Of a stretch of 64,000 bases of DNA, positions 6,567 through 51,472 are shown piece by piece. Under the pieces are notes generated by a model. It made no database searches and had not been told where the DNA came from. It worked only from the letters and a program-made list of their open reading frames with translations. Source of the stretch: Oscillospiraceae bacterium (GTDB taxonomy: Bacteria; Bacillota; Clostridia; Oscillospirales; Ruminococcaceae); the NCBI GenBank assembly GCA_018110825.1, contig JAGBCL010000105.1, forward strand, positions 62,001 to 126,000. The letters are read 5' to 3'. The first letter of the stretch is position 1. The number at the start of each line of letters is the position of its first letter. A program made the position numbers and the translations under genes.

Positions 6567-7397
6567 ATGAGCCGTGCTGATGAAATTTTTATCGATACCG
6601 TGAGGGATATCCTCGAAAACGGCGTTTCAGACGCTGATATGGACGTGCGCCCGAAGTGGGCTGACGGTACTCCTGCACATACAATCAAAAAATTCGGTGT
6701 TGTAAACCGCTACAATCTTGCGGAGGAATTCCCGATTATGACGCTCCGCAGAACATTCCTTAAAACCGCTGTTAAGGAACTTCTCTGGATTTGGCAGAAG
6801 AAGTCCAACAACATAAATGAGCTTGACGCTCACATCTGGGACAGCTGGGCGGACGAAAACGGCTCAATCGGCAAGGCTTACGGCTATCAGCTTGGCGTTA
6901 AGCATCATTACCCTGAGGGGGATATGGACCAGGTTGACCGTGTGCTGTATGATTTGAAGCACAACCCAGCAAGCCGCCGCATTATGACAAACATCTACAA
7001 CCACCACGATTTGTCCGAAATGGGTCTGTATCCCTGTGCGTACAGTATGACCTTCAACGTAAGCGGCGGAAAGCTGAACGCTATACTTAATCAGCGCTCG
7101 CAGGATATGCTTGCGGCGAACAACTGGAATATCTGTCAGTATGCAGTGCTTGTGCATATGATTGCACAGGTCAGCGGACTTGAAGCAGGCGAGCTTGTGC
7201 ACGTTATTGCCGACGCACACATTTACGACAGACACGTTCCGATTATAAAGGAAATCATCGAAAAGAAGCCTTTTGAAGCTCCGAAATTCACGCTGGACAA
7301 GTCGGTTACTGATTTCTACAAGTTCACCGCTGACAGCTTTACTCTTGAAAATTATGAGTATCACAAAGAGGATATAAAATTCGAAGTAGCAATATGA
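6567..7397 (+). CDS. thyA: Thymidylate synthase
   Basis: A 276-residue folate-dependent thymidylate synthase (dUMP to dTMP with methylene-THF). The catalytic cysteine sits in the LYPCAYS motif (Cys157), and the conserved RSQDMLAANNWNI phosphate/dUMP-binding region and the HIYDRH segment are present. The ATG at 6567 is chosen because AGGAGG (6552-6557) abuts the earlier ATG at 6558 but is 9 bases from this one. First gene of an operon that also carries folA, which regenerates THF from the DHF produced here. The stop codon lies inside the first hairpin of the repeat at 7394. Confidence 0.96.
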   Translation: MSRADEIFIDTVRDILENGVSDADMDVRPKWADGTPAHTIKKFGVVNRYNLAEEFPIMTLRRTFLKTAVKELLWIWQKKSNNINELDAHIWDSWADENGSIGKAYGYQLGVKHHYPEGDMDQVDRVLYDLKHNPASRRIMTNIYNHHDLSEMGLYPCAYSMTFNVSGGKLNAILNQRSQDMLAANNWNICQYAVLVHMIAQVSGLEAGELVHVIADAHIYDRHVPIIKEIIEKKPFEAPKFTLDKSVTDFYKFTADSFTLENYEYHKEDIKFEVAI

Positions 7398-7471
7398 ACA
7401 ACTGCGTTGCAGTTGTTCATATCCGAGTTTTTTCGCATTGCGAAAAAACATCGGGGTTTGCTTGTAAGTCA
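7394..7471 (+). repeat. Double-hairpin intercistronic element, copy 1
   Basis: Hairpin 1 is a 12-bp perfect stem with loop GTT (7394-7420). The linker starts with CCGAG. Hairpin 2 is a 10-bp perfect stem GTTTTTTCGC / GCGAAAAAAC with loop ATT, closed by an outer CCGA/TCGG pair (7423-7454). The tail reads GGTTTGCTTGTAAG. The same frame with different stem sequences recurs at 8204, 25537, 25645, 38735, 41857 and 51405. Confidence 0.8.
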
Positions 7472-7494
7472 AAACGTATGGAGAGTGATTGAAC

Positions 7495-7692
7495 ATGTTA
7501 GGTTTTGCAATTATTTTTATAATAGTTGGACTTGTACATATTTTTCTGCCTGAAGTTATATGGTATCTTGAACACGGTATACACGACAAAAATGCAGAAC
7601 CCGGTGAGTATAGCGAATTAATATATAAAATTATCGGCGGTATAGTTACTATTGCTGGAATAGCAGTCGCCGTATCGGAGGTAACAAAATGA
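7495..7692 (+). CDS. Small membrane protein, DUF6199-like
   Basis: A 65-residue protein with two hydrophobic helices (residues about 3-20 and 46-62) around a polar loop with EHGIHDKNAEPGEYSE. The arrangement resembles small DUF6199-type membrane proteins, but this is recognition by style only. The ATG at 7495 fits the GGAGAG site better than the TTG at 7489. Its end overlaps the folA start by four bases (ATGA), so it is translationally coupled to folA. Function unknown. Confidence 0.6.
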   Translation: MLGFAIIFIIVGLVHIFLPEVIWYLEHGIHDKNAEPGEYSELIYKIIGGIVTIAGIAVAVSEVTK

Positions 7693-8177
7693 TTACTGCA
7701 ATAGCCGCTGTAAGCGGAAACTGGGGTATTGGAAAGGGCGGCGATTTGCTGTTTCACATACCCGAGGATATGAAATTTTTCCGTATGACTACCCTTAACC
7801 ACAACGTGATTATGGGCAGAAAAACGCTGGAGTCCTTCCCGAATGGCAAGCCGCTGAAAAACCGCACGAATATCGTGCTTTCCCAAAATCCTGATTTTGC
7901 ACCCGAAGATGTTGTGGTTTGCAGAAGTGTGGGGGAAGCGATTGGCTATATGAATCAGCACGATGATGAGGATTTCATCTGCGGCGGCGGTGAGATTTAC
8001 AAGGCGTTTCTGCCATATTGCAGCAAGGCACTTATAACTAAGGTTGAAGCAACCCCTGAGGCGGATACATTCTTCCCCAATCTTGACGAGGACGAAAACT
8101 GGCTTCTTACTGAGCAATCTGAAGTTTTCGAGCACGAGGGGATAAAGTTCCGTTTCTGTACATATACAAGAAAGTAA
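7689..8177 (+). CDS. folA: Dihydrofolate reductase
   Basis: A 162-residue DHFR that reduces DHF to THF with NADPH. The N-terminal AAVSGNWGIGKGGDLLFHIP substrate loop, the VIMGRKTLESFP cofactor motif and the FICGGGEIYKAFLP motif with its paired glycines are all present, and the length is normal. It lies in the thyA operon, so dTMP synthesis and THF recycling are co-expressed. It overlaps the small membrane protein gene upstream. Confidence 0.96.
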   Translation: MITAIAAVSGNWGIGKGGDLLFHIPEDMKFFRMTTLNHNVIMGRKTLESFPNGKPLKNRTNIVLSQNPDFAPEDVVVCRSVGEAIGYMNQHDDEDFICGGGEIYKAFLPYCSKALITKVEATPEADTFFPNLDEDENWLLTEQSEVFEHEGIKFRFCTYTRK

Positions 8178-8203
8178 TTGACATAGACAAAAGATAGGAG
8201 TAA

Positions 8204-8293
8204 ATTTGAAAACAAGTTTTCAAATCCGAGTTTTGTGTTTTGCAAACACAAAACATCTTACAGAGAGGAGGACACACGCTTTTTCAAAGCGTG
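8204..8293 (+). repeat. Double-hairpin element, copy 2, with trailing hairpin
   Basis: Hairpin 1 is ATTTGAAAAC/GTTTTCAAAT (8204-8225); CCGAG linker; hairpin 2 is an 11-bp stem with loop TGC (8230-8254). A ribosome-site-like TAGGAG precedes it (8195-8200), and a second, stronger site AGGAGGACA follows (8266-8274). A third hairpin CACGCTTT/AAAGCGTG (8275-8293) then separates that site from the sirtuin start codon. Confidence 0.75.
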
Positions 8294-8305
8294 GTCAATA
8301 AGAAT

Positions 8306-9031
8306 ATGGACGAGCTTTTACAGCTGAAAAACTGGCTTGCTGAGTCGGAAAACATCGTATTTTTCGGCGGCGCAGGCGTTTCCACGGAAAGCGGCATACC
8401 CGACTTCAGAAGCGTTGACGGACTTTACAATCAGAAATACAAGTATCCTCCCGAAACAATTCTCAGCAGAACTTTTTACTGCAACAATCTTTCCGATTTC
8501 TATGAATTTTACCGTGACAAGCTTCTTTATCTTAACGCAAAGCCAAACAAGGCGCATCTTGCCCTTGCAAAGCTGGAGCAGATGGGCAAGCTTAAAGCGG
8601 TTGTAACACAGAATATCGACGGTCTGCATTATGCGGCGGGAAGCAAGGTTGTGTATGAGCTTCACGGCTCGGTGCACAGAAACTATTGCCTGCGCTGCGG
8701 AAAAATGCACGATGCCGAATACATAAAGAGCCTTGACGGACCTCCGCCCTGCACGGACTGCGGCGGACTTGTAAAGCCTGATGTTGTGCTTTACGAGGAG
8801 GGGCTGAACAGCGAGATTGTCAACGGTGCAATCGAGGCAATCAAGGCGGCTGATATGCTTATTATCGGCGGCACGTCCCTGTCTGTTTATCCCGCAAGCG
8901 GATATATCGATTTTTACACAGGCAAGAAGCTTGTGCTTATCAACAAGACCCCGACCGAAAAGGACGACCGTGCCGACCTGCTTATTCACGGCAGTATCGG
9001 CGAGGTGCTGGGTGTTGTGGACGAGCTTTAA
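8306..9031 (+). CDS. cobB: NAD-dependent protein deacylase, sirtuin family
   Basis: A 241-residue Sir2-family enzyme that removes acyl groups from lysine using NAD+. Visible motifs: GAGVSTESGIPDFRS (NAD binding), TQNIDGLH, the catalytic His in ELHGSVH, and four zinc cysteines as CLRC and CTDC. The ATG at 8306 is the best match to the family N-terminus; a GTG at 8291 would add five residues but lies in the arm of a hairpin. The AGGAGG site is 34 bases upstream, separated by that hairpin. nadC, an NAD synthesis gene, follows two genes later. Confidence 0.92.
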   Translation: MDELLQLKNWLAESENIVFFGGAGVSTESGIPDFRSVDGLYNQKYKYPPETILSRTFYCNNLSDFYEFYRDKLLYLNAKPNKAHLALAKLEQMGKLKAVVTQNIDGLHYAAGSKVVYELHGSVHRNYCLRCGKMHDAEYIKSLDGPPPCTDCGGLVKPDVVLYEEGLNSEIVNGAIEAIKAADMLIIGGTSLSVYPASGYIDFYTGKKLVLINKTPTEKDDRADLLIHGSIGEVLGVVDEL

Positions 9032-9049
9032 TGTGAAAAGAGTGACAAT

Positions 9050-9670
9050 ATGAAAAGATTTTTTGCAATTCTGCTTTCGGCAATGGTTTTGCCTGCAATG
9101 CTTCTGACGGGTTGTTCCGAAAAGGGTGAGGCTGCTGTTGAGGAGATTACGGCAACGGAGGCTGTCACCGAGGAAGCGATAAGAAAGTATCCGCTGAATT
9201 CGACAGCTGATATATGTCTTTCGGAGTTTTCTTTTGGTATGAGCAAACAAGAACTGGAAGCTGCGATAGACGATACACCGCTTGATATAGAATTTAAAAA
9301 CCACAGCATATATAAAAACATATCTTTGGATTTGGACGAAAGCCTGAACTCAGCCGCATTCAGATTTGGCAAAAGCGGACTTTTTGAGATTCAGCTTGAC
9401 AGCGGAACAATGTCCGAACAAGATGCTTTTGAACTGAGAGATAAGTTTATCGAACAGTTTAGCGAAATGTACGGTTTTTCGGCGTTTTCATCGGAAGACT
9501 GGGATATTTACAGTGATGGATATTGTAGTTTATCCAGAAAAACCAAAAATGACGCCTCTGTCTTTATAAGAATTAACGACAATGAAGATGCGTTTTCGGT
9601 AACGGTGATGTTTACAAGCAATGAACATCTCAGTTTCGAAAATGTTGAATTAAAATCTGTATTACAGTAA
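9050..9670 (+). CDS. Hypothetical lipoprotein
   Basis: A 206-residue protein with a lipoprotein signal peptide (basic MKRFF start, hydrophobic core, lipobox LTGC with Cys at about residue 22). A short E/A/T-rich linker precedes a soluble domain with phrases SFGMSKQELEAAID and SGLFEIQLDSG. I do not recognise the domain. It sits between the sirtuin and nadC in the same direction with short spacing, so it is probably co-transcribed. No function is assigned. Confidence 0.75.
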   Translation: MKRFFAILLSAMVLPAMLLTGCSEKGEAAVEEITATEAVTEEAIRKYPLNSTADICLSEFSFGMSKQELEAAIDDTPLDIEFKNHSIYKNISLDLDESLNSAAFRFGKSGLFEIQLDSGTMSEQDAFELRDKFIEQFSEMYGFSAFSSEDWDIYSDGYCSLSRKTKNDASVFIRINDNEDAFSVTVMFTSNEHLSFENVELKSVLQ

Positions 9671-9685
9671 ATAAGGAGAACCAAA

Positions 9686-10543
9686 ATGAACTTACCAAAC
9701 TTCTACACAGACGATATTATAAGACGTGCCCTTGAAGAGGACATCAACTATATAGACCTTGCGACTGACTACCTTCTTGACGACGAGGATATGTCAAGTG
9801 CTTCCTTTATCGCAAAGGCGGAGGGCGTCCTCTGCGGAATTGACATCGCTCTGCGTGTTTTCACACTTATCGACAGCGATGTTAAAACCGAAATCAAAAT
9901 CAAGGACGGCGGCAAGGTGAACAAGGGCGACGTTATTGCTACAGTAAGCGGCAGAACAAAGTCCATTCTCAAGGGCGAGAGAACCTCTCTCAACATTCTT
10001 CAGCATATGTCGGGAATTGCTTCCGAAACAGCTAAGTACGTTGCTTGCTGTGAGGGTACAAATTGCTCCGTTGCTGAAACAAGAAAGACACTTCCGGGAC
10101 TCCGCTCCCTTGAAAAGTACGCTGTAACGGTTGGCGGCGGCAAAAATCACCGCTTTAATCTTTCCGACGGTGCAATGCTCAAGGACAACCATATCGACGC
10201 TTACGGAAGCCTTACAAATGCAGTTGCGGCTCTTCGTGCAAAGATTGGACATATGGTGAAAATCGAGGTTGAGGTGCGCAATCAGGACGAACTGAGAGAA
10301 GCACTCAATTGTGCGGCTGACGTTATTATGCTTGACAATATGACACCTGCGCAGATGACAGACTGTGTGAAAATCGTTGACGAGGTTACGGCAGGAAAGT
10401 TCCGTCCCGTAATCGAGGCTTCGGGCAACATCACTCTTGACAATGCCGCTGAAATTGCAAAGACAGGCGTTGACCTGTTCTCTGTCGGTGCACTGACACA
10501 TTCTGTCAAGGCATTCGATATTTCACTTAGAATTATAAAGTAA
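9686..10543 (+). CDS. nadC: Nicotinate-nucleotide pyrophosphorylase (carboxylating)
   Basis: A 285-residue quinolinate phosphoribosyltransferase, which makes nicotinate mononucleotide from quinolinate and PRPP. Family motifs include GERTSLNILQHMSGIA, the ETRKTLPGLR substrate loop, GGGKNHRFNLSDGAMLKDNH and IEASGNITLDN near the end. A good ribosome site (AAGGAG) precedes the ATG. nadA and nadB are not in this window. Its place after a sirtuin gene links NAD supply and NAD consumption. Confidence 0.95.
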   Translation: MNLPNFYTDDIIRRALEEDINYIDLATDYLLDDEDMSSASFIAKAEGVLCGIDIALRVFTLIDSDVKTEIKIKDGGKVNKGDVIATVSGRTKSILKGERTSLNILQHMSGIASETAKYVACCEGTNCSVAETRKTLPGLRSLEKYAVTVGGGKNHRFNLSDGAMLKDNHIDAYGSLTNAVAALRAKIGHMVKIEVEVRNQDELREALNCAADVIMLDNMTPAQMTDCVKIVDEVTAGKFRPVIEASGNITLDNAAEIAKTGVDLFSVGALTHSVKAFDISLRIIK

Positions 10544-10578
10544 ATAAAATCCGGGGTAAATATATTGTAAAGGAAACA

Positions 10579-13509: not shown

Positions 13510-13516
13510 CGCAAAA

Positions 13517-13866
13517 TAATGGGTTTCCAAAGGGTGTGCGCACCCTTTGGTAGGGGTCAAGGGGGCAACGCCCCATTGTCGCCGTCCGCAGACGGCGAAA
13601 CTCCCCAACCAAACGCTTGCGTTTGGTTTCTTGCGCCAACGTTTTGCGAAGCAAAACTTGGAAACAAAAGCTTGCTTTTGTTTTTCGCAGTGCCGCCTAA
13701 GAAGCGCTCCGAAAAGGTGAATTTTGCGGCGATAAGCCGCAAAAGAGGAAATCTTCTGCAAAAAATCAAAACAAGTTTTGATTTGAGGGATTTCCTAACA
13801 ATGGCGAAGCCATTGTTTACAGTGTGCGAAGCCATTGTTTACAGCGCAACGCATTGTTGCAATAAA
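13517..13866 (+). repeat. Large composite hairpin element, copy A
   Basis: About 350 bases made of consecutive perfect hairpins: CCAAAGGGTG stem (13527-13550), GGGGC/GCCCC with loop AAC (13562-13574), CGCCGTC/GACGGCG (13580-13597), AACCAAACGC stem (about 13607-13628), GTTTTGC/GCAAAAC, AACAAAAGC/GCTTTTGTT, TTTTGCGGC-GATAA-GCCGCAAAA, and GGAAATC...GATTTCC enclosing an inner stem. The first roughly 85 bases and the GAAGCGCTCCG...GGTGAATTTTG linker are shared with an inverted copy at 24061-24269. It fills the 399-base gap between the two activator genes. The same frame stays open through it, but this looks incidental. Confidence 0.8.
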
Positions 13867-13908
13867 AAGATACGACAAAACAAATCCAACCGAAAGGACC
13901 GTATCCAA

Positions 13909-15135: not shown

Positions 15136-15137
15136 TT

Positions 15138-24060: not shown

Positions 24061-24269
24061 CGTTTTCTAAGCAGCTTCGCTGCTTCTAAGGACGCCCTCT
24101 CTTGCAGGGCGTCCCTCTTTTGAAGCTATCGCTTCAAAATTCACCCTTGCGGAGCGCTTGAAGCACGCCTGCGGGCGAAGTAGGATTTCGCCGTCTGCGG
24201 ACGGCGACGATGGGGCGCTGCCCCCTCGACCCCTGCCAAAGGGTGCGCACACCCTTTGGAAACCCATTA
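24061..24269 (-). repeat. Large composite hairpin element, copy B (inverted)
   Basis: Read on the minus strand it starts TAATGGGTTTCCAAAGGGTG like copy A at 13517 and stays nearly identical for about 85 bases. It then diverges, meets copy A again at the AAGCGCTCCG...GGTGAATTTTG linker, and ends with other stems. In the matching hairpin, copy A has GCGGC-GATAA-GCCGC and copy B has GAAGC-GATA-GCTTC: different stems, conserved loop and flanks. Further stems are GGACGCCCT/AGGGCGTCC and AAGCAGC/GCTGCTT. It lies between fabF and accB in the operon. Confidence 0.85.
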
Positions 24270-25516: not shown

Positions 25517-25536
25517 TATTTTAGTTTCCTTTCTAA

Positions 25537-25597
25537 AAGAATTGCAAGCAATTCTTTCCGAGTTTTGCTTTGCAAAACATCGGAGCTTGCAAAGAAC
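25537..25597 (+). repeat. Double-hairpin element, copy 3
   Basis: Hairpin 1 AAAGAATTGC/GCAATTCTTT (25537-25558), CCGAG, hairpin 2 GTTTTGC-TTT-GCAAAAC, then ATCGG (25559-25584) and an AGCTTGCAAAG tail. It is oriented opposite to the fab genes, unlike most other copies, and lies between fabG and fabF. Confidence 0.75.
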
Positions 25598-25644
25598 TTA
25601 TAATATTTGATTTAATATCGTTTTATCAGCGAAACAAGCTAAAA

Positions 25645-25726
25645 GTTTTATGGTTTTGCGTTAGCAAAATTTCAAGCGACAGCTTGAAAAATAAAACTCG
25701 GAGCTCAAACGGCAACGCCGTTTGAG
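25645..25726 (-). repeat. Hairpin element, copy 4, branched form
   Basis: Read on minus: hairpin 1 CTCAAACGGC-GTT-GCCGTTTGAG; then CCGA; then outer arms GTTTTAT...ATAAAAC enclosing two inner hairpins (TTTCAAGC/GCTTGAAA and TTTTGC/GCAAAA), so a three-way-junction-like layout. The outer arms GTTTTAT and CCATAAAAC are shared with copy 7 before metG, where the inside differs completely. Confidence 0.75.
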
Positions 25727-25729
25727 TTT

Positions 25730-26467
25730 TCACATTGACAAACCGCCGGAAATCTCGATTGTCTGTCCTGTTACATAGGAAGCATCTGCGGAGCAGAGGA
25801 AGGACACAACGCCTGCGATTTCGTCAACTGTACCGTAACGCTTCATTGCGATTGCTTCGAGCATCTTTGCCTTCTGCTCGTCTGTAAGCTTATCAGTCAT
25901 TGGTGTGCTGATAAAACCGGGAGCAACAGCATTAACGTTGATATTTCTTGAACCGAGTTCCTTTGCGGCTGTCATTGTCATACCGATGATAGCTGCCTTT
26001 GAAGCGGAATAGTTAATCTGTCCGGGATTGCCGTAAAGACCTGCAACGGAAGCGAGGTTAACAATCTTGCCCTGCTTCTGACGAATCATAACGTTGCCCG
26101 CAAGCTTCATCATATTGAACACGCTTTTCTGATTTACAGCGATAACCATATCGTACTGCTCCTCAGGCATTCTTGCCATAAGACCGTCACGTGTGATACC
26201 TGCGTTGTTGATAAGGGCATCAATTGTGCCGAAGCGTTCCTTGACAGCCTTAACCATATTTTCGCAGTCCTCGTACTTTGAAACGTCTGCGCAGAAGATT
26301 TCAACTTCAACGCCAAGAGCACGGATATCGTCTGCGATTGTATTATTTTCAAACATAGACTCATTAAGGTCGTTGAGGGCAATGTTGTAGCCGTCCTTTG
26401 CAAGGCGCATAGCGATTGCCGCACCGATACCTCTTGATGAGCCTGTGATAATTGCTGTTTTAGCCAT
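25730..26467 (-). CDS. fabG: 3-oxoacyl-ACP reductase
   Basis: A 245-residue short-chain reductase using NADPH. The TGSSRGIGAAIA cofactor motif, NNAGITRDG, catalytic Ser (NLASVAG) and YSASKAAIIGMT with Tyr/Lys are present. It reduces 3-oxoacyl-ACP. Its 5' neighbour in the operon is an unrelated small membrane protein. Confidence 0.95.
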   Translation of the reverse strand: MAKTAIITGSSRGIGAAIAMRLAKDGYNIALNDLNESMFENNTIADDIRALGVEVEIFCADVSKYEDCENMVKAVKERFGTIDALINNAGITRDGLMARMPEEQYDMVIAVNQKSVFNMMKLAGNVMIRQKQGKIVNLASVAGLYGNPGQINYSASKAAIIGMTMTAAKELGSRNINVNAVAPGFISTPMTDKLTDEQKAKMLEAIAMKRYGTVDEIAGVVSFLCSADASYVTGQTIEISGGLSM

Positions 26468-32975: not shown

Positions 32976-33716
32976 TTAAGAGAACTTTCTTAATGCCGAA
33001 GAAACGATAAGACCGATACCGCCTACGATTGCAAGGATAAGAACAACCAGAAGAATTGTCATGCCGATGTTCTTGCCTGTGGAAACAGTATCCTCGGCTA
33101 CCATCTTTTTAAGCTGATAGTCACCGATGTTTTCCATAATTGTGCCATCGGGTTTTGTAATAGTCAGGTCGTCAATGTAAACAATATTTCCTGTATATGT
33201 CTTGAATGTAGGAATTGTAAATCCGACAGTAGTGTTGTTTGCACCATCAGGTATTGTGATGGAAACTGTGGACCACTCTTCAGTACTGAGACCTGTTGCA
33301 GGCTGAGTGAGCCAGATTGTTCCGTCGCTGTAGAGAGAAAGGTTTTCGCAGAAAGCTTCAGCACCTTCACAGAGCTTTACGCTCATTTCGATTGTGCAGT
33401 TTTCGAAGCTTGTAAAATCTTCGGCTCCGAAACAAGATGCGTCGATGAAATATCCGCCGTACTGCTGCTGAATATCGCCGGAGCAGTCCTCGGAAACAAT
33501 TATACAGCCGTTTCCGTTCTTGGATTCAAAGGTTGTGTGAGTAAGCTTCATACCGGCCTGCTCAACGGAACCATAGGACTGGAATGTTTCAGACTTGATT
33601 TCTGTATCAAAGCAGAAAGTAGCTTCACCGTCCTCAACTGCGAATACATTTGCGGCACACATACCTGCAGCAACAACAGAAGCAAGCACTGCAGAAACAA
33701 TTTTTCTGAATTTCAT
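32976..33716 (-). CDS. Secreted, membrane-anchored beta-sandwich protein
   Basis: A 246-residue protein with a Sec signal peptide (KFRKIVSAVLASVVAAGMCA, cleavage near NVFAVED), a beta-rich domain resembling carbohydrate-binding or jelly-roll modules (KNGNGCIIVSEDCSG, TEEWSTVSITIPDG, GNIVYIDDLTI) and a C-terminal transmembrane helix with a short basic tail. ATG 33716 fits the AAAGGA site. The pattern IVYIDDLTI near the end of the domain is common in CBM-like modules. The ligand is unknown; a role in polysaccharide binding is inferred. Confidence 0.7.
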   Translation of the reverse strand: MKFRKIVSAVLASVVAAGMCAANVFAVEDGEATFCFDTEIKSETFQSYGSVEQAGMKLTHTTFESKNGNGCIIVSEDCSGDIQQQYGGYFIDASCFGAEDFTSFENCTIEMSVKLCEGAEAFCENLSLYSDGTIWLTQPATGLSTEEWSTVSITIPDGANNTTVGFTIPTFKTYTGNIVYIDDLTITKPDGTIMENIGDYQLKKMVAEDTVSTGKNIGMTILLVVLILAIVGGIGLIVSSALRKFS

Positions 33717-33764
33717 TATAATCAATCCTTTCGGAGAGTTGTCATTGTACAAATGCATGTAATA

Positions 33765-33793
33765 ATTGTACTATCAAACGAAAAATTTGTCAA
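33765..33793 (-). promoter_or_regulatory. Promoter of the CBM-like gene, -35 inside a terminator stem
   Basis: Minus strand TTGACA, 17-bp spacer, TACAAT. The -35 hexamer lies in the downstream arm of the terminator hairpin of the EF-G gene, so termination of one gene and initiation of the next overlap. Confidence 0.75.
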
Positions 33794-33825
33794 TATGTTT
33801 GCTGTGAAACATATTGACAAATTTT
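33782..33825. terminator. Long terminator hairpin of the EF-G paralogue
   Basis: Perfect stem of about 19 bp (core TTGTCAATATGTTT / AAACATATTGACAA) with a 6-base loop. U-run on the minus strand. Confidence 0.8.
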
Positions 33826-38734: not shown

Positions 38735-38812
38735 AACCAAATCGGCAACGCCGATTTGGTTACGGGTTTTTTCGCCTTGCGAAAAAACACCGTGGTTTGC
38801 TTGTAATCTAAA
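38735..38812 (+). repeat. Double-hairpin element, copy 5
   Basis: Hairpin 1 AACCAAATCGGC-AAC-GCCGATTTGGTT right after the condensation gene stop; then an ACGG/CCGT-closed hairpin 2 (GTTTTTTCGC-CTT-GCGAAAAAAC, almost the same stem as copy 1); tail TGGTTTGCTTGTAATC. In the closing pair, copy 1 has CCGA/TCGG and this copy ACGG/CCGT: a paired change. Confidence 0.8.
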
Positions 38813-41812: not shown

Positions 41813-41856
41813 AATAAAGTATATACGAAAATTACCCTTTTGGGTTTAGGAGGAAA

Positions 41857-41969
41857 AGCTTGAAAATAAATTTTCAAGCTGTAAGTTTTATTTTCTTCGC
41901 TGACGCTCAGAATTTTCTGACGAAAACCATAAAACTTTGAAAGGAGGACATATTCCCAATGGGAATATG
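41857..41969 (+). repeat. Hairpin element, copy 7, in the metG leader
   Basis: Hairpin 1 AGCTTGAAAAT-AA-ATTTTCAAGCT (41857-41880). Outer arms GTTTTAT (41885-41891) and CCATAAAAC as in copy 4, enclosing different inner stems. Then the second ribosome site AAAGGAGG (41940-41947) and a trailing hairpin CATATTCCC-AAT-GGGAATATG (41949-41969). The first ribosome site AGGAGG at 41848 lies immediately before the element, so it is bracketed by two sites. Confidence 0.75.
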
Positions 41970-41978
41970 ACTATTATT

Positions 41979-43916
41979 ATGTCAAAGAAATTCTACATCA
42001 CGACCCCGATTTATTATCCATCGGGCAATCCGCACATCGGTCACTGCTACACAACCGTTGCATGTGACTCCATCGCTCGCTACAAGCGAATGCAGGGCTA
42101 TGATGTAATGTTCCTCACAGGTACTGACGAACACGGTCAGAAAATCGAAAACAAGGCAAAGGAACAGGGTGTTACACCAAAGCAGTACGTTGACCCTATC
42201 GTTGATAATTTCAAGAGATTATGGGCAACTATGAACATCAGCTATGACAGATATATCCGTACAACCGACCCTTACCATATTGAAACCGTACAGAAAATCT
42301 TCAAGGCTCTTTACGACAAGGGTTATATCTACAAGGGCAAGTACACAGGCAAATACTGTACTCCTTGTGAAAGCTTCTGGACTGAGTCTCAGCTAGTTGA
42401 CGGCAAGTGCCCCGACTGTGGACGTGAAGTAATTGAGGCTGACGAGGAAGCTTACTTCCTCCGTCTTTCCGATTTTGCAGACAAAATTGAGAAGTTCCTT
42501 ACTGAAACGGATTACCTCCAGCCAAAGAGCCGTGTAAACGAAATGGTAAATAACTTCATCAAGCCGGGTCTTGAAGACCTCTGCGTTTCTCGTACCAGCT
42601 TTACATGGGGTGTACCTGTTGATTTCGATAAGGGACATGTTGTATATGTATGGGTTGACGCACTTTCCAACTATATCAGTGCTCTCGGTTACGAAAACAG
42701 CGAATACAATGATTATGACAAATACTGGCCTGCTGATATGCATATGACAGCAAAGGAAATCGTTCGTTTCCATTCTATTGTATGGCCTGCAATCCTTATG
42801 ATGCTTGACCTGCCGCTTCCGAAGCGTCTTTACGGTCATGGCTGGATTAACTTCAACGGTCAGAAGATGAGTAAGTCTATCGGTAATGTTATCGACCCGT
42901 TCGTTCTTGCGGAACGTTACGGCGTTGACTCGGTACGTTATCAGATTCTCCGCGATATGCCTTATGGCTCAGACTGCAACTTTTCCAACGAGATTATGAT
43001 TGGACGTATCAATACCGACCTTGCAAATGCTCTGGGTAACCTCGTTTCCAGAACTGTTGCAATGGTTGTGAAATACTTTGACGGAACACTCGGCGGTGAG
43101 AAACAGGAAGGTCCTGAGGACAGTGCTCTTATCGAGTCGGCAAAGGCTCTCAGAAGCAAGGTTGACGAAACTGTGGAAAATGCACAGCTCAGCAATGCTC
43201 TCGATGAAATTTTTAAGGTAATCTCTTCTGCAAACAAATATATCGACGAAACTGCTCCATGGGTGCTTGCCAAGGAAGAAAGCAGCAAGCCAAGACTTCG
43301 TGCTGTTCTTTATAATCTGCTCGAAACAATCCGTATTACAACAACACTCCTCTCCGCATTCATGCCTACAGATATGCCTAAGGTATGGGAGCAGATTGAT
43401 GCAGCAGCTGAACACGTTACTTACGAAAAGGCGGCTGAATTCGGCGTGCTTCCTGCTGATGTAACTGTAAAGAAGGGCGACGTTATCTTCCCACGTATTG
43501 ATGTTGAAAAGGAAATTGAAGCACTCAATGCTCTGCTTGCGGCTGACGCTCCTGCTGATGACGCTGACAAGGCAAACCTTGTTCCTATTTCCGAAACTAT
43601 CGGTATCGACGATTTCTGCAAGGTCGATATGAGAGTTGCAGAAATTAAGGAATGTGAGAAAATTCCTAAGGCAAAGAAGCTTCTGAAGCTTCAGCTTGAC
43701 GATGGCTTCGGTACACGTCAGGTTGTTTCGGGTATCGCAAAATGGTACGAGCCTGCTGACCTTATCGGCAAGAAGGTTATTGTTGTTGCAAACCTCTCTC
43801 CTGCAAAGCTTTGCGGTGTTGAGTCCAACGGTATGATTGTTGCCGCTTCCGTGGGCGAGGACGCAAAGGTGCTCTTTGTTGACAAGGATATCCCTAACGG
43901 TTCAAAATTAAGCTAA
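41979..43916 (+). CDS. metG: Methionyl-tRNA synthetase
   Basis: About 645 residues from ATG 41979. HIGH motif appears as PSGNPHIGH, four zinc cysteines as CTPC and CPDC, KMSKS as QKMSKSIGNV, and a C-terminal Trbp111-like tRNA-binding domain (IGIDDFCKVDMRVAEIKECE onward) is fused. The start choice is unusual: AAAGGAGG is 31 bases from this ATG, but a perfect 21-base hairpin lies between them, leaving 10 unpaired bases. ATG 41967, in the hairpin, is the alternative (649 residues). The leader has no T-box motifs. Confidence 0.95.
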   Translation: MSKKFYITTPIYYPSGNPHIGHCYTTVACDSIARYKRMQGYDVMFLTGTDEHGQKIENKAKEQGVTPKQYVDPIVDNFKRLWATMNISYDRYIRTTDPYHIETVQKIFKALYDKGYIYKGKYTGKYCTPCESFWTESQLVDGKCPDCGREVIEADEEAYFLRLSDFADKIEKFLTETDYLQPKSRVNEMVNNFIKPGLEDLCVSRTSFTWGVPVDFDKGHVVYVWVDALSNYISALGYENSEYNDYDKYWPADMHMTAKEIVRFHSIVWPAILMMLDLPLPKRLYGHGWINFNGQKMSKSIGNVIDPFVLAERYGVDSVRYQILRDMPYGSDCNFSNEIMIGRINTDLANALGNLVSRTVAMVVKYFDGTLGGEKQEGPEDSALIESAKALRSKVDETVENAQLSNALDEIFKVISSANKYIDETAPWVLAKEESSKPRLRAVLYNLLETIRITTTLLSAFMPTDMPKVWEQIDAAAEHVTYEKAAEFGVLPADVTVKKGDVIFPRIDVEKEIEALNALLAADAPADDADKANLVPISETIGIDDFCKVDMRVAEIKECEKIPKAKKLLKLQLDDGFGTRQVVSGIAKWYEPADLIGKKVIVVANLSPAKLCGVESNGMIVAASVGEDAKVLFVDKDIPNGSKLS

Positions 43917-43923
43917 GAAAAAG

Positions 43924-43954: not shown

Positions 43955-43983
43955 TGGTGTATGTGGTAAATTATAATTTGTCT

Positions 43984-44104
43984 GAATGTGAAAAGTGGAA
44001 TGTGAAATGAGGAATTAATGTTGTCGGCTTTGCCGACAATTTAAAAATTGTCCGCCAAAGGCGGGCACAATAATTTCACTTTCCTCATTCCTAATTCCAC
44101 ATTT
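43984..44104. repeat. MITE-like imperfect palindrome, copy 1
   Basis: Outer arms are related to AATGTGGAATTAGGAA...GTGAAATTA in inverse orientation; inside are two hairpins, TTGTCGGC/GCCGACAA (about 44022-44039) and TGTCCGCC/GGCGGGCA. The outer sequence recurs at 51884-51963. Confidence 0.6.
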
Positions 44105-44109
44105 GCTAA

Positions 44110-44127
44110 GATAAATTATAATTTATC
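44110..44127. promoter_or_regulatory. Perfect 18-bp palindrome before the FMN-binding gene
   Basis: GATAAATTATAATTTATC is its own reverse complement and contains a TATAAT-like box. It could be an operator overlapping the promoter. Confidence 0.4.
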
Positions 44128-44148
44128 TAATCAACAAGGAGTGATACT

Positions 44149-44631: not shown

Positions 44632-44687
44632 TAATCAGAATTATATAGAGCACCTTGCATATGATTAAGAAACAAAGGAGAATAACT

Positions 44688-45458
44688 ATGCTTGAATATA
44701 TCGACTCACACGCACATTACGACGACGAAGCCTTCGACAGCGACCGTGACGAGCTGCTTGTCCGTGTACACGAGGGCGGCGTGAAATACATTATAAATAT
44801 GGGCTGTAATATGGAGCGCTCACGCTTTTCAGTGGAGTACGCAAACAAGTTTCCTTTCATCTATGCGGCGGTGGGAATTCACCCTGAGGACGTAGACAAG
44901 GCTCCTGCCGACTATCTTGAACAGCTCCGCAAGTGGGCGGCTGACCCTAAGGTTGTTGCAATCGGCGAAATCGGACTTGATTATCATTATGACGGCTACG
45001 ATGCTGAATTGCAGAAGAAAATTTTTGAGGAACAGCTTGACCTTGCGGCTGAACTTGACCTGCCCGTTGTAATTCACTCCCGTGACGCAACGGAGGACAC
45101 GCTGAACATTCTCCGCAAGAGGGGAAAGGTAAACGGTGTAATGCACTGTTTCTCAGGCTCGGCGGAAACCGCAAAGCAGATGCTTGACCTCGGTCTGCAT
45201 ATCAGCTTTACGGGCGTGCTGACCTTCAAGAATGCGAAAAAGGCAATCGGTGCGCTGGGAGTTGTGCCTGTGGACAAGCTTCTCCTTGAAACGGACTGTC
45301 CATATATGGCACCTGAGCCAAACCGTGGCAAACGCTGCGACAGCAGTATGATTGTCCACGTCATTGACAAAATTGCCGCTGAAAAGGGAATTGCACCCGA
45401 AGAGGTTGCAAAGCAGACAATGGCGAACACTATGAATTTGTTCTGCAGAATGAAATAA
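44688..45458 (+). CDS. tatD: TatD-family metal-dependent hydrolase
   Basis: A 256-residue TIM-barrel hydrolase. Metal ligands in IDSHAHYDD, AIGEIGLDYH, VVIHSRDA, MHCFSG and LLETDCPY are all present. TatD homologues are 3'-5' DNases/exonucleases; the physiological role is not settled. ATG 44688 has the AAAGGAG site; an earlier in-frame ATG is not supported. In many Firmicutes tatD follows metG closely, and the same order is seen here with one gene between. Confidence 0.92.
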   Translation: MLEYIDSHAHYDDEAFDSDRDELLVRVHEGGVKYIINMGCNMERSRFSVEYANKFPFIYAAVGIHPEDVDKAPADYLEQLRKWAADPKVVAIGEIGLDYHYDGYDAELQKKIFEEQLDLAAELDLPVVIHSRDATEDTLNILRKRGKVNGVMHCFSGSAETAKQMLDLGLHISFTGVLTFKNAKKAIGALGVVPVDKLLLETDCPYMAPEPNRGKRCDSSMIVHVIDKIAAEKGIAPEEVAKQTMANTMNLFCRMK

Positions 45459-45461
45459 CAC

Positions 45462-45497
45462 AAACGGCTTCCGACGTATAGTCAGAAGCCGTTTTCG
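45462..45497. terminator. Shared hairpin between tatD and rnr
   Basis: Arms AAACGGCTTC / GAAGCCGTTT with extra GAC/GTC pairs; between convergent genes. Confidence 0.75.
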
Positions 45498-45498
45498 C

Positions 45499-47643: not shown

Positions 47644-47664
47644 ATTCACCCTCCTTTTCTGTAT

Positions 47665-47696
47665 GAAAAAAGTCCCGTGCAGAAAACACAGGACTT
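47665..47696 (-). terminator. Hairpin terminator or attenuator between secG and rnr
   Basis: Minus strand stem AAGTCCTGTG / CACGGGACTT (one G-U) with TTTTCTG loop, then a run of T. May let only part of transcription reach rnr. Confidence 0.7.
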
Positions 47697-47708
47697 ATCG
47701 GTAATATT

Positions 47709-47984
47709 TTAACCCTGACTGGTTTTGTTAATGATTGCAGGGATAATATTAACTGCAAGAGTTACAATGAAGAATGCAATAGCAAGGATTTTTGTAGTTC
47801 TTGCAAGAATCTGTTCCTTGGAGCTGGAAACGTTGCCCTTGCCGAAGAAGTTATCGCTCTGACCTGAAAGAGCAGAGCCCATATCCTGCTGCTTGTGATC
47901 CTGCATCATTGTAACTGCAATAATCAAAACGCTGCAAACGAGCATTAAAATACCACCGATAATCTGAATTGCGCCGAATTCCAT
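47709..47984 (-). CDS. secG: Protein translocase subunit SecG
   Basis: A 91-residue protein with two transmembrane helices and the typical cytosolic loop GSALSGQSDNFFGKG. It is a small accessory part of the SecYEG channel. A strong promoter (48023-48051) precedes it. The gene order secG-rnr is a well-known Firmicute arrangement. Confidence 0.93.
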   Translation of the reverse strand: MEFGAIQIIGGILMLVCSVLIIAVTMMQDHKQQDMGSALSGQSDNFFGKGNVSSSKEQILARTTKILAIAFFIVTLAVNIIPAIINKTSQG

Positions 47985-48022
47985 TGGTCTGTACCTCCAT
48001 AATAATATACGTTATCTTTTGA

Positions 48023-48051
48023 ATTATAACACATTTCTTTTTATTTTGCAA
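48023..48051 (-). promoter_or_regulatory. Promoter of secG-rnr
   Basis: Minus strand TTGCAA, 17-bp spacer, TATAAT. Confidence 0.82.
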
Positions 48052-48068
48052 GGGGTTTTTGAAATTTT

Positions 48069-48746
48069 TTAATCAAGTTCTTCAAGTGACTCTCTGATAG
48101 ACTTTTTAAAAGGATCTACTTCTAAATACAATCGTAATGCTTCATATCCATATGGGTCATCATAAAAGTCCTCTCCATAATGATATCCTTCAGAGAATTC
48201 TATGATTTTCCCATTTTCCAAAGCACCATATATACTGTAATAATATTCATACTTTGGCTCCATACATAAGAAGCGTGCTGGATGTTGTACTTTATCCATT
48301 TTGCTACTTGTATCAATCTTCGATATTGTATCATAAAATTCAATAAGCTTATGAACATCAACAGTACCCGTTATTTCATACTTGTCAGCTTCCGTAAATT
48401 TCTGTGCCGCCCATTCAAATTCAGTTTCAACAGTATAATCCTTGTAGAATTTTTCGTGACCAGCCCATTTGAAACATCGAACAGCACCATTCTTTTCTAT
48501 AAATAATATTTCTAGTGTCTCTTTCTTGTCATCAAATTCTTCTGAATAAAACCTCTCTGAATTAATCCTCATAGTAACAACCTGCGGCATAGTTTCCCAG
48601 ATTGCCATTTCTTCCTCGGTTAAGTCTGTAGGGAGCGTTACTGTAATTTCTTCCTTTGCAGGCTGTTTGTCGTCTGCCGAGCTGCACCCTGTGAGCATAA
48701 TTATTGCTGAAAAAACAATTGCTGTTATCCGTTTGAATTTTATCAT
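48069..48746 (-). CDS. Hypothetical lipoprotein
   Basis: A 225-residue protein with lipoprotein signal (IKFKRITAIVFSAIIMLTGC, lipobox LTGC). The mature part is mixed alpha/beta with many charged and aromatic residues; family not recognised. Codon use is more AT-rich than its neighbours, which may indicate transfer or weak constraint. Site AGGAGGG before the ATG. It follows the flavin reductase gene. Confidence 0.7.
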   Translation of the reverse strand: MIKFKRITAIVFSAIIMLTGCSSADDKQPAKEEITVTLPTDLTEEEMAIWETMPQVVTMRINSERFYSEEFDDKKETLEILFIEKNGAVRCFKWAGHEKFYKDYTVETEFEWAAQKFTEADKYEITGTVDVHKLIEFYDTISKIDTSSKMDKVQHPARFLCMEPKYEYYYSIYGALENGKIIEFSEGYHYGEDFYDDPYGYEALRLYLEVDPFKKSIRESLEELD

Positions 48747-48796
48747 ATAAATCCCTCCTATATAATAAAACGCTTTTCGAAGTTATTTCACTACAA

Positions 48797-49402
48797 CTAT
48801 TTTTTCTTCTTTTTCGCAACCGAGTACCCGAACGACCCAAGCTTTCTTCCCAACGAAAAATATTCACCGTGGGAGTATGCCATAAGCCCCGACTGCTGAA
48901 GGTTGATTTTGCCCTTGCTGTCGAGATAGTGACCGTCCACGCTTACCGCAACAATTTCCGCAAGGAACATATCGTGTGTACCCAGCTGCTTCACCTCAAC
49001 AACCTTGCACTCCAGCGACAGCGGACTTTCAGAAATTATGGGTGCGCTGACCTTTGAGGCAGGCTCAAGGTGCAGGTTGCACTTCTTTATCTTGTCTATA
49101 TCCTTGCCGCTTCGCACACCGCAGAAGTCGGTTTCCCGTACCATTTTCGACGTGGTAAGATTAATTACAAACTCGCCGCTTTCCTTGATGATGTTGTAGG
49201 AATGACGTGACGGACGCACAGAAATATATGTCATAGCAGGGTGCGTGCAGACAATTCCCGTCCAGGCAACCGTCAGCACGTTTGCTTTTTGCATCGTGCC
49301 GCAGGAAACCATTACCGCAGGCAGCGGTGCAAGAAGCGTGCCTGGGTTGAGGGCCTTGCGGGAATAATCTATCTTAGGTTTGTTCTGCTTGTTTTCGGGC
49401 AT
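48797..49402 (-). CDS. Flavin reductase-like protein
   Basis: A 201-residue FMN-binding split-barrel reductase: TLLAPLPAVMVSCGTMQKANVLTVAWTG and THPAMTYISVRPSRHSYN are conserved phosphate/flavin-contact regions, and GEFVINLTTSKMVRETDFCG follows. It likely reduces flavin or acts on a small-molecule substrate. It starts one base after the ABM gene, implying coupling. Confidence 0.88.
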   Translation of the reverse strand: MPENKQNKPKIDYSRKALNPGTLLAPLPAVMVSCGTMQKANVLTVAWTGIVCTHPAMTYISVRPSRHSYNIIKESGEFVINLTTSKMVRETDFCGVRSGKDIDKIKKCNLHLEPASKVSAPIISESPLSLECKVVEVKQLGTHDMFLAEIVAVSVDGHYLDSKGKINLQQSGLMAYSHGEYFSLGRKLGSFGYSVAKKKKK

Positions 49403-49403
49403 T

Positions 49404-49745
49404 TCAATCTTCCTGCTCTCTTATGAATTTCCTGTCACTTTCGGGAACGCCGTTCTCATCGGAAACATAGCGTTCCACACGCATTGTAAGATTATACTTT
49501 TCACGGAGTCCGATAATTGTATCCATCATCGGAGTAGCGTGGTGCTTGTCGATTGCGGACTGGTCTTTCCAGCTGTCGATAAGCAGCACCGTTTCGCTGT
49601 CATTCATTGGGAAGAAATATTCGTATTTTTCGTTCCCGTCTTCGGCACGAATCAAATCCGCCGTACCGCTGCTTTCCATTTCCTCGGCAAATTTTCTCGC
49701 ATTGCCGTTTTCACCTTTGTAGTAGATATTTACTGTTATGCTCAT
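49404..49745 (-). CDS. ABM-domain monooxygenase-like protein
   Basis: A 113-residue ferredoxin-fold protein of the antibiotic-biosynthesis-monooxygenase (ABM) type (YYKGENGNARKFAEEMES and ETVLLIDSWKDQSAIDKHHATP). Such proteins act as cofactor-free monooxygenases or in quinone/aldehyde metabolism. Coupled to the flavin reductase gene. ATG 49745 is chosen; the earlier GTG-type start lies in the previous gene's end. Confidence 0.8.
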   Translation of the reverse strand: MSITVNIYYKGENGNARKFAEEMESSGTADLIRAEDGNEKYEYFFPMNDSETVLLIDSWKDQSAIDKHHATPMMDTIIGLREKYNLTMRVERYVSDENGVPESDRKFIREQED

Positions 49746-49753
49746 AAGGCACC

Positions 49754-50932
49754 TCATTCATCAGGATAATTCTTCATTATCTCCAGAAACGCATCAAAGT
49801 TTTCCTTGAACGCGTCAACAACCTTCGGGTCAAACTGCTTTCCGCTCTGGGACACAATTTCCTCGTAAGCCTTTTCGGGAGTCCACGCCGCCTTGTATGG
49901 CCTGCTGCTGACAAGTGCATCAAAAACGTCAGCAAGTGCGGCACATCTTGCATAAGGCGTGATATCGTCGCCCTTTACACCCTTGTAACCATTGCCGTCC
50001 CATCTTTCGTGGTGCTGGTAGGCGATATCTGTGGATATCTTAAACAATTCACCCGGAGAGGTTTCAAGCATCTGCTTGCCGTACTCGATATGCTTCTTCA
50101 CAACCTCATATTCTTCCGCAGTAAGCTTGCCCGGCTTTTCGAGAATTGTTTCGGGAAGCATAATCTTGCCCACGTCGTGCATCATAGCTGCAAGACTGAT
50201 TTTCCAGCTTTCCTCCTCGTCATAGCCAAGGCTTCTGCAAAGCACTTCCGTATATTCAGCAACACGGCGGACGTGCTGACCTGTATGTTCAGACTTATTT
50301 TCGATAATCTGCGACAACGCAAGGATAAGGTTTTCCTGGTCGTCATAAAGTTCGGCATTTTTCTTTGCAAGTGTATCAACAAGACGTTCCATTCTGTCCG
50401 AAATAAAGTAGCACATTATTACAACGCCTGCAAACTCAATACCTCTCGGAAGAATGCCGTAGAGAACAGTTCCTTTCAGCGTTACAAGCGGCTCATCGGG
50501 AACAACCTTAAGCGCATACGCCGCAAGGTGTGAAATAATAATCATAGGTACGCTCAGTATCGCCGTGAACTTTACATACTTCTTTTCGTTGTACAGACAG
50601 GACATTACCAACGGAAAAACAAGCATTATTATTGTGTGATAAGACAACGAAGCATATTGCAGACCTGACTGGAAAACCATAAGCGCAAGAAAAAAATACC
50701 TCATTTCCTTAGAACGCATTTTCAGGATGTCGCCGAACAGCGTCGGAAGAAAAAAGATAAAGATTGACACGCCGACTGTCAGATAAAGCGGTACTGCGTC
50801 AATTATAAAAACACCGATAAAATTCAGCAGTGCCACAAGCAGCATAAACACAATCATAAGCCTGCATATAAATGCAAGACGCTTGTCGGCGTCCTTGCTG
50901 TATTCACTTATTATTTTTTCAGAAAAATGCAT
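49754..50932 (-). CDS. Membrane HD-GYP-domain protein
   Basis: A 392-residue protein: five or six transmembrane helices (about 20-180), then an HD-GYP hydrolase domain. HD catalytic pair is His252/Asp253 (HDVGK); HHERWDGNGYKG (307-318) corresponds to the GYP motif but has Lys in place of Pro. HD-GYP proteins hydrolyse cyclic di-GMP; activity is likely but the variant motif leaves doubt. A membrane sensor region suggests control by an external or membrane signal. ATG 50932 follows GGGGTG; the GTG at 50941 is rejected. Confidence 0.88.
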   Translation of the reverse strand: MHFSEKIISEYSKDADKRLAFICRLMIVFMLLVALLNFIGVFIIDAVPLYLTVGVSIFIFFLPTLFGDILKMRSKEMRYFFLALMVFQSGLQYASLSYHTIIMLVFPLVMSCLYNEKKYVKFTAILSVPMIIISHLAAYALKVVPDEPLVTLKGTVLYGILPRGIEFAGVVIMCYFISDRMERLVDTLAKKNAELYDDQENLILALSQIIENKSEHTGQHVRRVAEYTEVLCRSLGYDEEESWKISLAAMMHDVGKIMLPETILEKPGKLTAEEYEVVKKHIEYGKQMLETSPGELFKISTDIAYQHHERWDGNGYKGVKGDDITPYARCAALADVFDALVSSRPYKAAWTPEKAYEEIVSQSGKQFDPKVVDAFKENFDAFLEIMKNYPDE

Positions 50933-50970
50933 TTTCCGCACCCCATTTCAATTAATGTTGCTTTTACAAA

Positions 50971-51378
50971 TCAACGTATATACTCAAAAACCCCGTTATT
51001 ATCAAAATCGTCAATTATTTCCTGGGGCAGTAACCGCCTGCATTCAGCTTCATCTGCCCACACAAAAGCCTGATGTTCTTCGCTGAGTGTCACGTTTTCC
51101 GTCAGTGCCTCGCAAAGATACGCAATAATCAGATACGGCTCATTCGTATTAACAAGGGTCACGTACGCAACGTGCCTGATACGCACCTCCGTCAGACCTG
51201 TTTCCTCATATATTTCCCTTGCCATAGCAAACTCGGGAGTTTCACCCTGCTCAACGTTTCCACCTGCGTTTTCCCACGTTCCAGCACCGATATCGTCAGA
51301 ATTGCAGCGCTGAACAAGAAGAATTTTACCAAGCTTTCTGTTGTAGATAATGCTTTTTACAACTATGTCGGCTTTCAT
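50971..51378 (-). CDS. Nudix hydrolase
   Basis: A 135-residue protein with a complete Nudix box at residues 40-62 (GGNVEQGE...REIYEETG). VVKSIIYNRKLGKILLVQRC resembles ADP-ribose/8-oxo-dGTP type clades, but the substrate cannot be assigned. Site AGGAGG. The element at 51405 separates it from the upstream gene. Confidence 0.88.
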   Translation of the reverse strand: MKADIVVKSIIYNRKLGKILLVQRCNSDDIGAGTWENAGGNVEQGETPEFAMAREIYEETGLTEVRIRHVAYVTLVNTNEPYLIIAYLCEALTENVTLSEEHQAFVWADEAECRRLLPQEIIDDFDNNGVFEYIR

Positions 51379-51404
51379 TTTGTTCCTCCTGATAGAATAT
51401 AAAA

Positions 51405-51472
51405 TACAAGCAAACCCCGACGTTTTTCTGCAACGCAGAAAAGCTCGGAGACAAAATCTTTGATTTTGTTTT
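51405..51472 (-). repeat. Double-hairpin element, copy 6
   Basis: Read on minus: hairpin 1 ACAAAATC-AAA-GATTTTGT at the end of the upstream gene, then CCGAGCTTTTCTGC-GTT-GCAGAAAAACG-TCGG and the tail GGTTTGCTTGTA, exactly the tail seen in copy 1 and, nearly, in copy 5. Confidence 0.8.

Follow-up and report, generated by a model that had tools for sequence, protein, structure and literature searches.

Short, folded, multi-copy sequences distributed patchily among related genomes are familiar in bacteria, e.g., the pneumococcal BOX, RUP, and SPRITE elements and miniature inverted-repeat transposable elements (MITEs) (PMC3049150; PMC10969869); small palindromic mobile repeats as a kind are already known. 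The family described here shares these properties. It was found in a 64,000-nucleotide stretch of an Oscillospiraceae bacterium genome (GenBank assembly GCA_018110825.1, contig JAGBCL010000105.1, positions 62,001–126,000; hereafter, the window), where a sequence-only reading had listed seven double-hairpin copies. Our preferred reading, to which we assign a probability of about 0.62, is that these copies belong to two position-specific forms of one non-autonomous mobile palindrome family with a shared folded core: the T form, mostly starting after TA or TAA, in part of the cases a stop codon, and the S form, placed between the Shine–Dalgarno sequence (SD) and the start codon of a gene and bringing an SD of its own.

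Each known system matches this family in some respects only. BOX elements are modular, and some large ones bring a start codon, while SPRITE is enriched near gene 3' ends; the frames carried by BOX are said to be without good SD candidates, whereas the S form brings one, and does so between SD and start codon (PMC3049150). Compared with MITEs, neither terminal inverted repeats nor target duplications are seen in the present family; in the text of a MITE review (PMC10969869), the terms Shine–Dalgarno, ribosome binding, and start codon have no occurrence. Rickettsia palindromic elements, palindromes of about 150 bp adding an in-frame peptide to unrelated genes (PMC10969869), can be likened to the S form by description; however, they insert within reading frames, whereas the S insert stops short of the native ATG and makes, at most, an N-terminal addition such as MVII. 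In phage T4 genes 25 and 38, a hairpin between SD and AUG shortens the spacing from 27 to 11 nt and from 22 to 5 nt, respectively, and is reported to be functional (PMC3014915); those split sites are single genes, while the S arrangement, with about 33 nt reduced to 10–12 nt by geometry, is carried by a dispersed, mobile-looking cassette. Mitochondrial GC clusters and double-hairpin elements are also short hairpins with presence/absence variation and with merging and shuffling of modules; being organellar, flanked by AG or ACT direct repeats, and, in the text available, devoid of a translation-site form (PMC4478555), they resemble the S/T family in layout only. MRSC-65-2, a multi-copy structured motif with strong covariation, was judged likely selfish, but, unlike the S/T family, it is one long stem found across phyla (PMC11109978). 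In the open literature, covered mostly at the title and abstract level, we found no published description of a form that lies between SD and start codon with its own SD and hairpin.

The window contains 40 perfect hairpins of at least 8 bp, versus 2–5 in five random sequences with the same dinucleotide frequencies, and, as the sequence-only reading had claimed, hairpin structures are present at all seven places (7394, 8204, 25537, 25645, 38735, 41857, and 51405; copies 1–7 in this order). The combination CCGAGTTTT..AACATCGG has two exact matches and none in 100 shuffles. The tail GGTTTGCTTGTA occurs exactly at three sites (7455, 38794, and, on the minus strand, 51405); since matches with up to two mismatches are at chance level (8 versus 7.1 expected), only the exact form is counted. 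Read in its own sense, each copy has a common core, that is, hairpin 1 followed by a four-base helix closing hairpin 2 (CCGA/TCGG, ACGG/CCGT, CCAA/TTGG, and others), with one bulged A or G at the 3' side of the closing helix; in some copies, a three-way junction with unpaired CC takes the place of hairpin 2. The T form in the window comprises copies 7394, 25537, 38735, and 51405, three of the four having a GGTTTG-type tail and three of the four following a stop codon. Two copies represent the S form, 8204 with a SIR2 gene behind it and 41857 with a methionyl-tRNA synthetase gene behind it; copy 25645 has an S-like core without an SD. Table 1 gives the coordinates, including those of a further copy beyond the seven, closed by CCAA/TTGG.

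The seven copies had been presented as a single layout. The shared core (hairpin 1, a CCGAG-type linker, hairpin 2) stands, but two position-specific forms were mixed in it, and one uniform family of seven is ruled out. The compensatory change to ACGG/CCGT in copy 5 was described correctly; the CCGA/TCGG closing had been assigned to copies 1, 3, and 6 and is found in copies 1, 3, and 7, and the arms GTTTTAT..CCATAAAAC, assigned to copies 4 and 7, are in copies 4 and 6. The minus strand carries copies 4 and 7. The statement that nearly all copies lie just after a stop codon does not hold: copies 1, 4, 5, and 7 do, a start codon follows copies 2 and 6, and copy 3 runs antisense to both neighbours.

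Table 1. Copies of the family and associated features in the window (SD, Shine–Dalgarno sequence).
Feature	Coordinates	Strand	Details
T copy 1	7392..7466	+	Hairpin 1 7392–7422, overlapping the stop codon that ends at 7397; CCGA/hairpin 2/TCGG 7423–7454; tail GGTTTGCTTGTA 7455–7466
Native SD (AGGAG), sirtuin gene	8196..8200	+	Now 5' of S copy 2
S copy 2	8202..8308	+	Hairpin 1 8204–8225; CCGAG-hairpin 2 8226–8254; second SD 8262–8274; hairpin 3 8275–8293, GTG-ended, in frame; native ATG 8306–8308
SIR2-family gene behind S copy 2	8306..9031	+	From native ATG; Pfam
Extra copy, CCAA/TTGG closing	13631..13683	-	Within a cluster of another multi-hairpin repeat
T copy 3	25536..25592	+	Antisense to both neighbour genes; without GGTTTG tail
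Copy 4	25603..25730	-	Hairpin 1 and three-way-junction core; without SD tail; 3' of the stop of gene 25730–26467(-)
T copy 5	38735..38805	+	Hairpin 1 38735–38761; ACGG/hairpin 2/CCGT 38762–38793; tail 38794–38805; begins directly after a stop codon
Native SD (AGGAGG), metG	41848..41853	+	5' of S copy 6
S copy 6	41856..41983	+	Hairpin 1 41857–41880; three-way junction; second SD 41940–41947; hairpin 3 41949–41969, ATG-ended, in frame; native ATG 41979–41981
Methionyl-tRNA synthetase gene behind S copy 6	41967..43916	+	Counted from the hairpin-3 ATG; Pfam
T copy 7	51405..51471	-	Hairpin 1 51451–51469; CCGA/hairpin 2 51424–51442/TCGG; tail 51405–51416

Two search models were used, R1 built on the seven copies and R2 built on nine S copies. 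The S form was described from 75 R2 matches of 72 sources, a part of the genus copies. Its elements are, in order, the gene's own SD, hairpin 1 (GTTTGAAAATAAATTTTCAAAC type), the core, AAAGGAGG(ACA), hairpin 3, about nine bases such as GTCATAATT, and the ATG of the gene. The full layout, i.e., a second SD, hairpin 3, and a start codon opening a frame of at least 60 codons, is present in 65 of the 75 matches; five others are without a second SD, three without a scored hairpin 3, and two without a frame. An SD-like word within 16 nt 5' of hairpin 1 is seen in 68/75, compared with 9–24/75 at nine control offsets. The median distance from the second SD to the start is 33 nt, and it becomes 10–12 nt in 45 of 64 copies once hairpin 3 is looped out. 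Judging from this geometry, the S form probably keeps the invaded gene translatable via a hairpin-split ribosome-binding site.

Hairpin 3 itself ends in ATG or GTG in 53/65 copies, in frame with the native start in 45 of these 53 (1/3 expected, p = 1e-14), and a start there would give peptides such as MVII. Such a start codon is missing at hairpin 3 in 12/65 copies as scored, and in 10 by eye (L192 and L210 hold an ATG near the hairpin end); the orthologous S copies L181 and L182 differ in the frame of the hairpin-3 start. Since a fixed nine-nucleotide tail would alone give the in-frame excess, some copies have no start codon at hairpin 3, and the L181/L182 frames differ, the native start is preferred and the hairpin-3 ATG is disfavoured as an obligatory start. 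The genes behind S copies are diverse: of 21 proteins scanned, 19 have a Pfam family (MetG, SIR2, YidC, RbfA, sigma factors, a histidine-biosynthesis enzyme, transporters, and others), with no common pathway.

Comparison of the home assembly (G000; 3.1 Mb, 96% complete) with its relatives reveals empty sites for both forms; these presence/absence differences are between species, not strains. The site of S copy 8204 is empty in all seven relatives aligned (ten searched), and in G004 AGGAGCAAATT is directly followed by TATGGACGAG. The site of S copy 41857 is empty in 3/3 (G004, G001, G003), and the S copy before the home yidC is missing in 2/2, as G003 and G004 show an SD, a five-base spacer, and ATG. 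T copy 7394 is missing in the three gaps aligned (G004, G001, and G003, where the G001 gap is rearranged), while G001 and G003 have no T copy at the 38735 site and G004 has a remodelled one. The gaps that correspond to 25537 in relatives fail to align and hold no copy; around 51405, G004 does not keep the gene order, and the remaining matches reach only one flank. Terminal inverted repeats are absent by eye, the ends being hairpin 1 and the tail, which are not inverted copies of each other.

Other copies are shared, with different stems. Copy 25645 is common to G001 and G003, where the hairpin-1 bases are different and still paired; in the yidC–jag gap, G000 and G004 have the tail in common, while hairpin 1, the closing helix, and hairpin 2 differ, all still paired. 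Because these orthologous copies differ in stem bases with pairing kept, stems are replaced at fixed sites. A mobile palindrome family with replaceable stems, one of the two options left by the sequence-only reading, is thus supported by empty sites in relatives, by copies in both orientations, and by orthologous copies with changed yet paired stems.

The home genome has 39 R1 matches at E ≤ 1 and 28 at E ≤ 0.01, more copies than expected by chance. Among the 21 genomes of the genus, R1 matches 8 at E ≤ 0.01, under stricter filters, and 7 at E ≤ 1e-5; outside the genus, none of 40 genomes matched. R2 at E ≤ 1e-4 matches 19 of the 21 genus genomes, with 24 places in the home genome, and the two genomes without a match are 78% and 55% complete. 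The lowest E-values are 4e-17 (R1) and 3e-28 (R2), and linkers are kept in relatives. Beyond the genus, 146 additional genomes sampled from the order gave R2 matches in 5, which belong to five other genera; the matches in four of them are weak, and the single strong match, at a contig edge, may be contamination. A second SD-like stretch and an ATG are seen by eye in 9 of 10 outside copies read, and hairpin 3 in one of three outside genera read. Two of ten distant S copies examined (L340 in G088 and L341 in G122) lie between 18-nt direct repeats comprising SD and spacer, possibly a target duplication or a recombination footprint. No Rfam family of 4227 matches the window at gathering scores; among ten loci scanned by E-value, one weak match to a miRNA family was under its cut-off. 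One S copy compared with phage and plasmid records gave no match. By the home SIR2 protein, the closest relatives are uncultured Oscillospiraceae/Clostridia assemblies, some titled animal gut (goat cecum, goat colon).

Covariation in the stems is significant and strong in both sets, whose alignments were fitted to their models. With copies in excess of chance and linkers kept in relatives, none of the three results that the sequence-only reading had named as refuting it was obtained. In the S form, 96.3% of cells are paired and 29 of 41 pairs changed on both sides, with 368 double-changed cells versus 83 (standard deviation 13) in shuffled and at most 60 in slid alignments; all nine pairs of hairpin 3 changed on both sides. 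In the R1 set, which includes some S rows and reverse-strand echoes, 22 of 23 pairs changed on both sides, with 235 cells versus 55 (standard deviation 7) shuffled and at most 23 slid. A structure-blind MAFFT alignment of 42 S copies analysed with RNAalifold gives hairpin 1 and the same three-way junction, both partners having changed in 14/28 pairs. Folded singly, the sequences are stable (z of -4.2 and -3.5).

Covariation alone is no proof of RNA. Selection at the RNA level should tolerate G–U pairs but not A–C mismatches. G–U is no commoner than A–C in the R1 set (22 versus 27 of 1469 cells, counted on 72 of the 91 rows, which include S-type and duplicate ones) or in S hairpin 1 (1 versus 3 of 674 cells), which suggests that the pairing of these palindromes is renewed at the DNA level. 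Over all S helices, G–U prevails (48 versus 23, p = 0.004), and, in a grouping chosen once the counts were known, hairpin B, hairpin 3, and the closing helix account for 37 versus 14 (p = 0.002). This lean to G–U points to some selection on S copies as RNA, hinting at an RNA role for S helices other than hairpin 1. The other initial option, a structured RNA element acting in polycistronic mRNA, therefore retains support for the start-codon form (position, second SD, modest excess of G–U over A–C), but not for the other copies.

R1 in part matches S cores, hence its rows are not purely T, and orientation of T copies was counted on 52 of 91 rows, after removal of S copies, of echoes that the palindromic hairpin 2 gives on the reverse strand, of a copy represented in two loci, and of several additional copies from a locus already counted; reading frames for orientation and position were called mechanically, at least one of them wrongly (window 7396). 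A GGTTTG-type tail is frequent at T-copy ends (base counts over 39 copies), and the bases 5' of hairpin 1 are TA, TAA, or TAAA in 32 of 44 copies. The stop codon of a sense gene ends within 3 nt of the hairpin 1 start in 11/52 copies and overlaps hairpin 1 by 6–13 nt in five further ones. At co-directional genes, 31 copies are sense and 9 antisense (p = 7e-4), so sense orientation is a bias, not a rule; of the 52 copies, 9 are antisense and 6 lie between convergent genes. Heptamer-like arrays (TAATGCG/TAATTCG) abut hairpin 1 in several T copies, e.g., L046, L064, L076, and L320, and a GTTCCACGTGGAAC palindrome and TTGTAGGGGCGG repeats are close to others. A further hairpin such as GCCCCCTTGATATGGGGGC is seen 5' of copies L066, L067, L073, L080, L086, and L087 (G002, G011), with a different stem around a similar loop in L087.

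Under the preferred reading of one mobile family in two forms, elements of about 50–160 bp would be moved by an activity that presumably recognises the folded core. The T form, often ending in the GGTTTG-type tail, mostly starts after TA/TAA, partly the stop codon of the preceding gene, while the S form lies between the SD and the start codon of a gene with its own SD, the third hairpin, and about nine more bases. After insertion, ribosomes would bind at the SD of the element while hairpin 3 is looped out, so that the SD–AUG distance would fall from about 33 to about 10–12 nt; the gene would thereby stay expressed, and S copies before start codons would survive through their SD. Alternatively, translation may start at the hairpin-3 ATG, adding a few residues such as MVII. 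Pairing in the core would be maintained chiefly in the DNA, through template switching (hairpin copying) or through copies exchanging sequence, with stem sequences turning over while pairing and linkers persist. Renewal of palindromes by template switching has been described (PMC8794818). Several observations weigh against this reading. Neither of the empty sites 8204 and 41857 shows a visible target-site duplication; any single absence in a relative could be a deletion; and copy 25645 is not seen in the nearest relative, G004, though it is present in more distant ones. Several T copies deviate from the layout, and the R2 match L331, in a fourth outside genus, is without the S layout. RNAalifold misses hairpin 3 when run on the 42 MAFFT-aligned S copies, and at minimum energy copy 41857 folds into hairpins 1 and 3 without forming the junction. 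That the S form is seen almost solely before start codons owes something to R2, which was built with the SD tail; for this form, a preference in insertion can therefore not be told from survivorship. Finally, no mobilising gene was found in a screen that covered the Y1 transposase only.

That screen bears on a derivation from repetitive extragenic palindromic (REP) elements moved by a Y1 (HUH) transposase of the IS200/IS605 group (REP-associated tyrosine transposase, RAYT). Small bulged hairpins, both orientations, the TA/TAA/TAAA flank in 32/44, and the lack of visible target duplication are all compatible with such elements. However, the Y1 domain (PF01797) is found in no protein of G000 and in 4 of 21 genus genomes, none of them among the seven with R1 matches at E ≤ 1e-5; as the mobiliser, it is unsupported. 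REP/RAYT elements have a conserved GTAG-like tetranucleotide at the 5' hairpin foot; here, GTAG is at this place in 1/63 copies (anywhere in the copy or in 8 nt around it in 13/63, CCGTAG in 7/63), and we regard this origin as quite improbable. Still less credit is given to intrinsic terminators, mRNA-stabilising hairpins, or REP-like intergenic clutter of many independent origins. It is common to find hairpins separating co-directional genes, palindromic repeats of many other kinds occur here, and the antisense and convergent T copies would be at home in such a mixture. Against it stand the E-values, as low as 4e-17 and 3e-28, and the linkers, bulge, tail, and second SD common to unrelated genes; these common unpaired stretches already contradict independent origins. 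A terminator placed between SD and ATG, as S copies are, would silence the gene, and terminators are rejected as a sufficient explanation.

More weight, though short of making it likely, is due to the S form as a conserved cis-regulatory RNA, i.e., a protein- or metabolite-binding leader of a scattered regulon, spread by duplication, with the T form as a degenerate relative. The strong covariation, the conservation of unpaired linkers and junction bases, the sense position before genes (65/75), the G–U over A–C bias across S helices, and the weaker relatives in the five other genera of the order would all be expected of such a leader. The 19 downstream proteins with a Pfam family, however, share no pathway, the sites are lineage-specific, the same core is also found after stop codons and in antisense, and Rfam gives no match at its cut-offs. 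The preferred reading could also be extended: spread might be directed at the ends of reading frames, with S before start codons and T after stop codons, via mRNA or the initiating or terminating ribosome, making the S form a portable translation-initiation cassette; we consider this extension rather unlikely.

R1 copies are clustered in six stretches (L317–L322), where no transposase-like gene was noticed (Pfam was applied to L317 only, and L321 was not read for genes). Four of the six carry origin-region core genes: L317 (G000:C1:12000-31999), L318 (G003:C20), L319 (G001:C17), and L320 (G004:C42) hold 4/27, 5/21, 5/28, and 3/23 copies, respectively, versus 0.1–0.5 expected on these contigs, which were chosen for their clusters. 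The L317 genes are dnaN, recF, gyrB, gyrA, yidC, jag, and mnmE by Pfam; L318 and L320 have similar protein starts by eye, and L319 has an mnmG-like protein only. Away from the origin, clusters are found at L322 and on the window's contig (C97), with 10 of 28 matches versus 2.3 expected.

Other repeats occur in the window. A second multi-hairpin repeat (CCAAAGGG..CCCTTTGG, TTTAGGGGCAACGCCCCTAAA, TCGCCG..CGGCGA), with variable but paired stems, is located at 13527–13820 and 24118–24259, and also in L010, L011, L013, L014, L017, and L018. A perfect 19-bp inverted repeat, AAAATTTGTCAATATGTTT, with a 6-nt loop, lies at 33782–33825, just past the start of gene 32976–33758(-), and three successive hairpins at 6257–6358, 3' of a gene, are similar to the double-hairpin elements and fall outside R1 matches.

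If the preferred reading is true, the simple count of G–U versus A–C separates palindromes paired at the DNA level from selected RNA structures, a caution for covariation-based RNA discovery, and gene finders can misplace the start codons of genes with the S form. Mobile sequences would then be landing in the most sensitive spot of a gene, even of metG and yidC, and keeping it functional by supplying a new ribosome-binding site; site choice by such elements, and the generality of hairpin-split ribosome-binding sites among bacteria, would become open to test.

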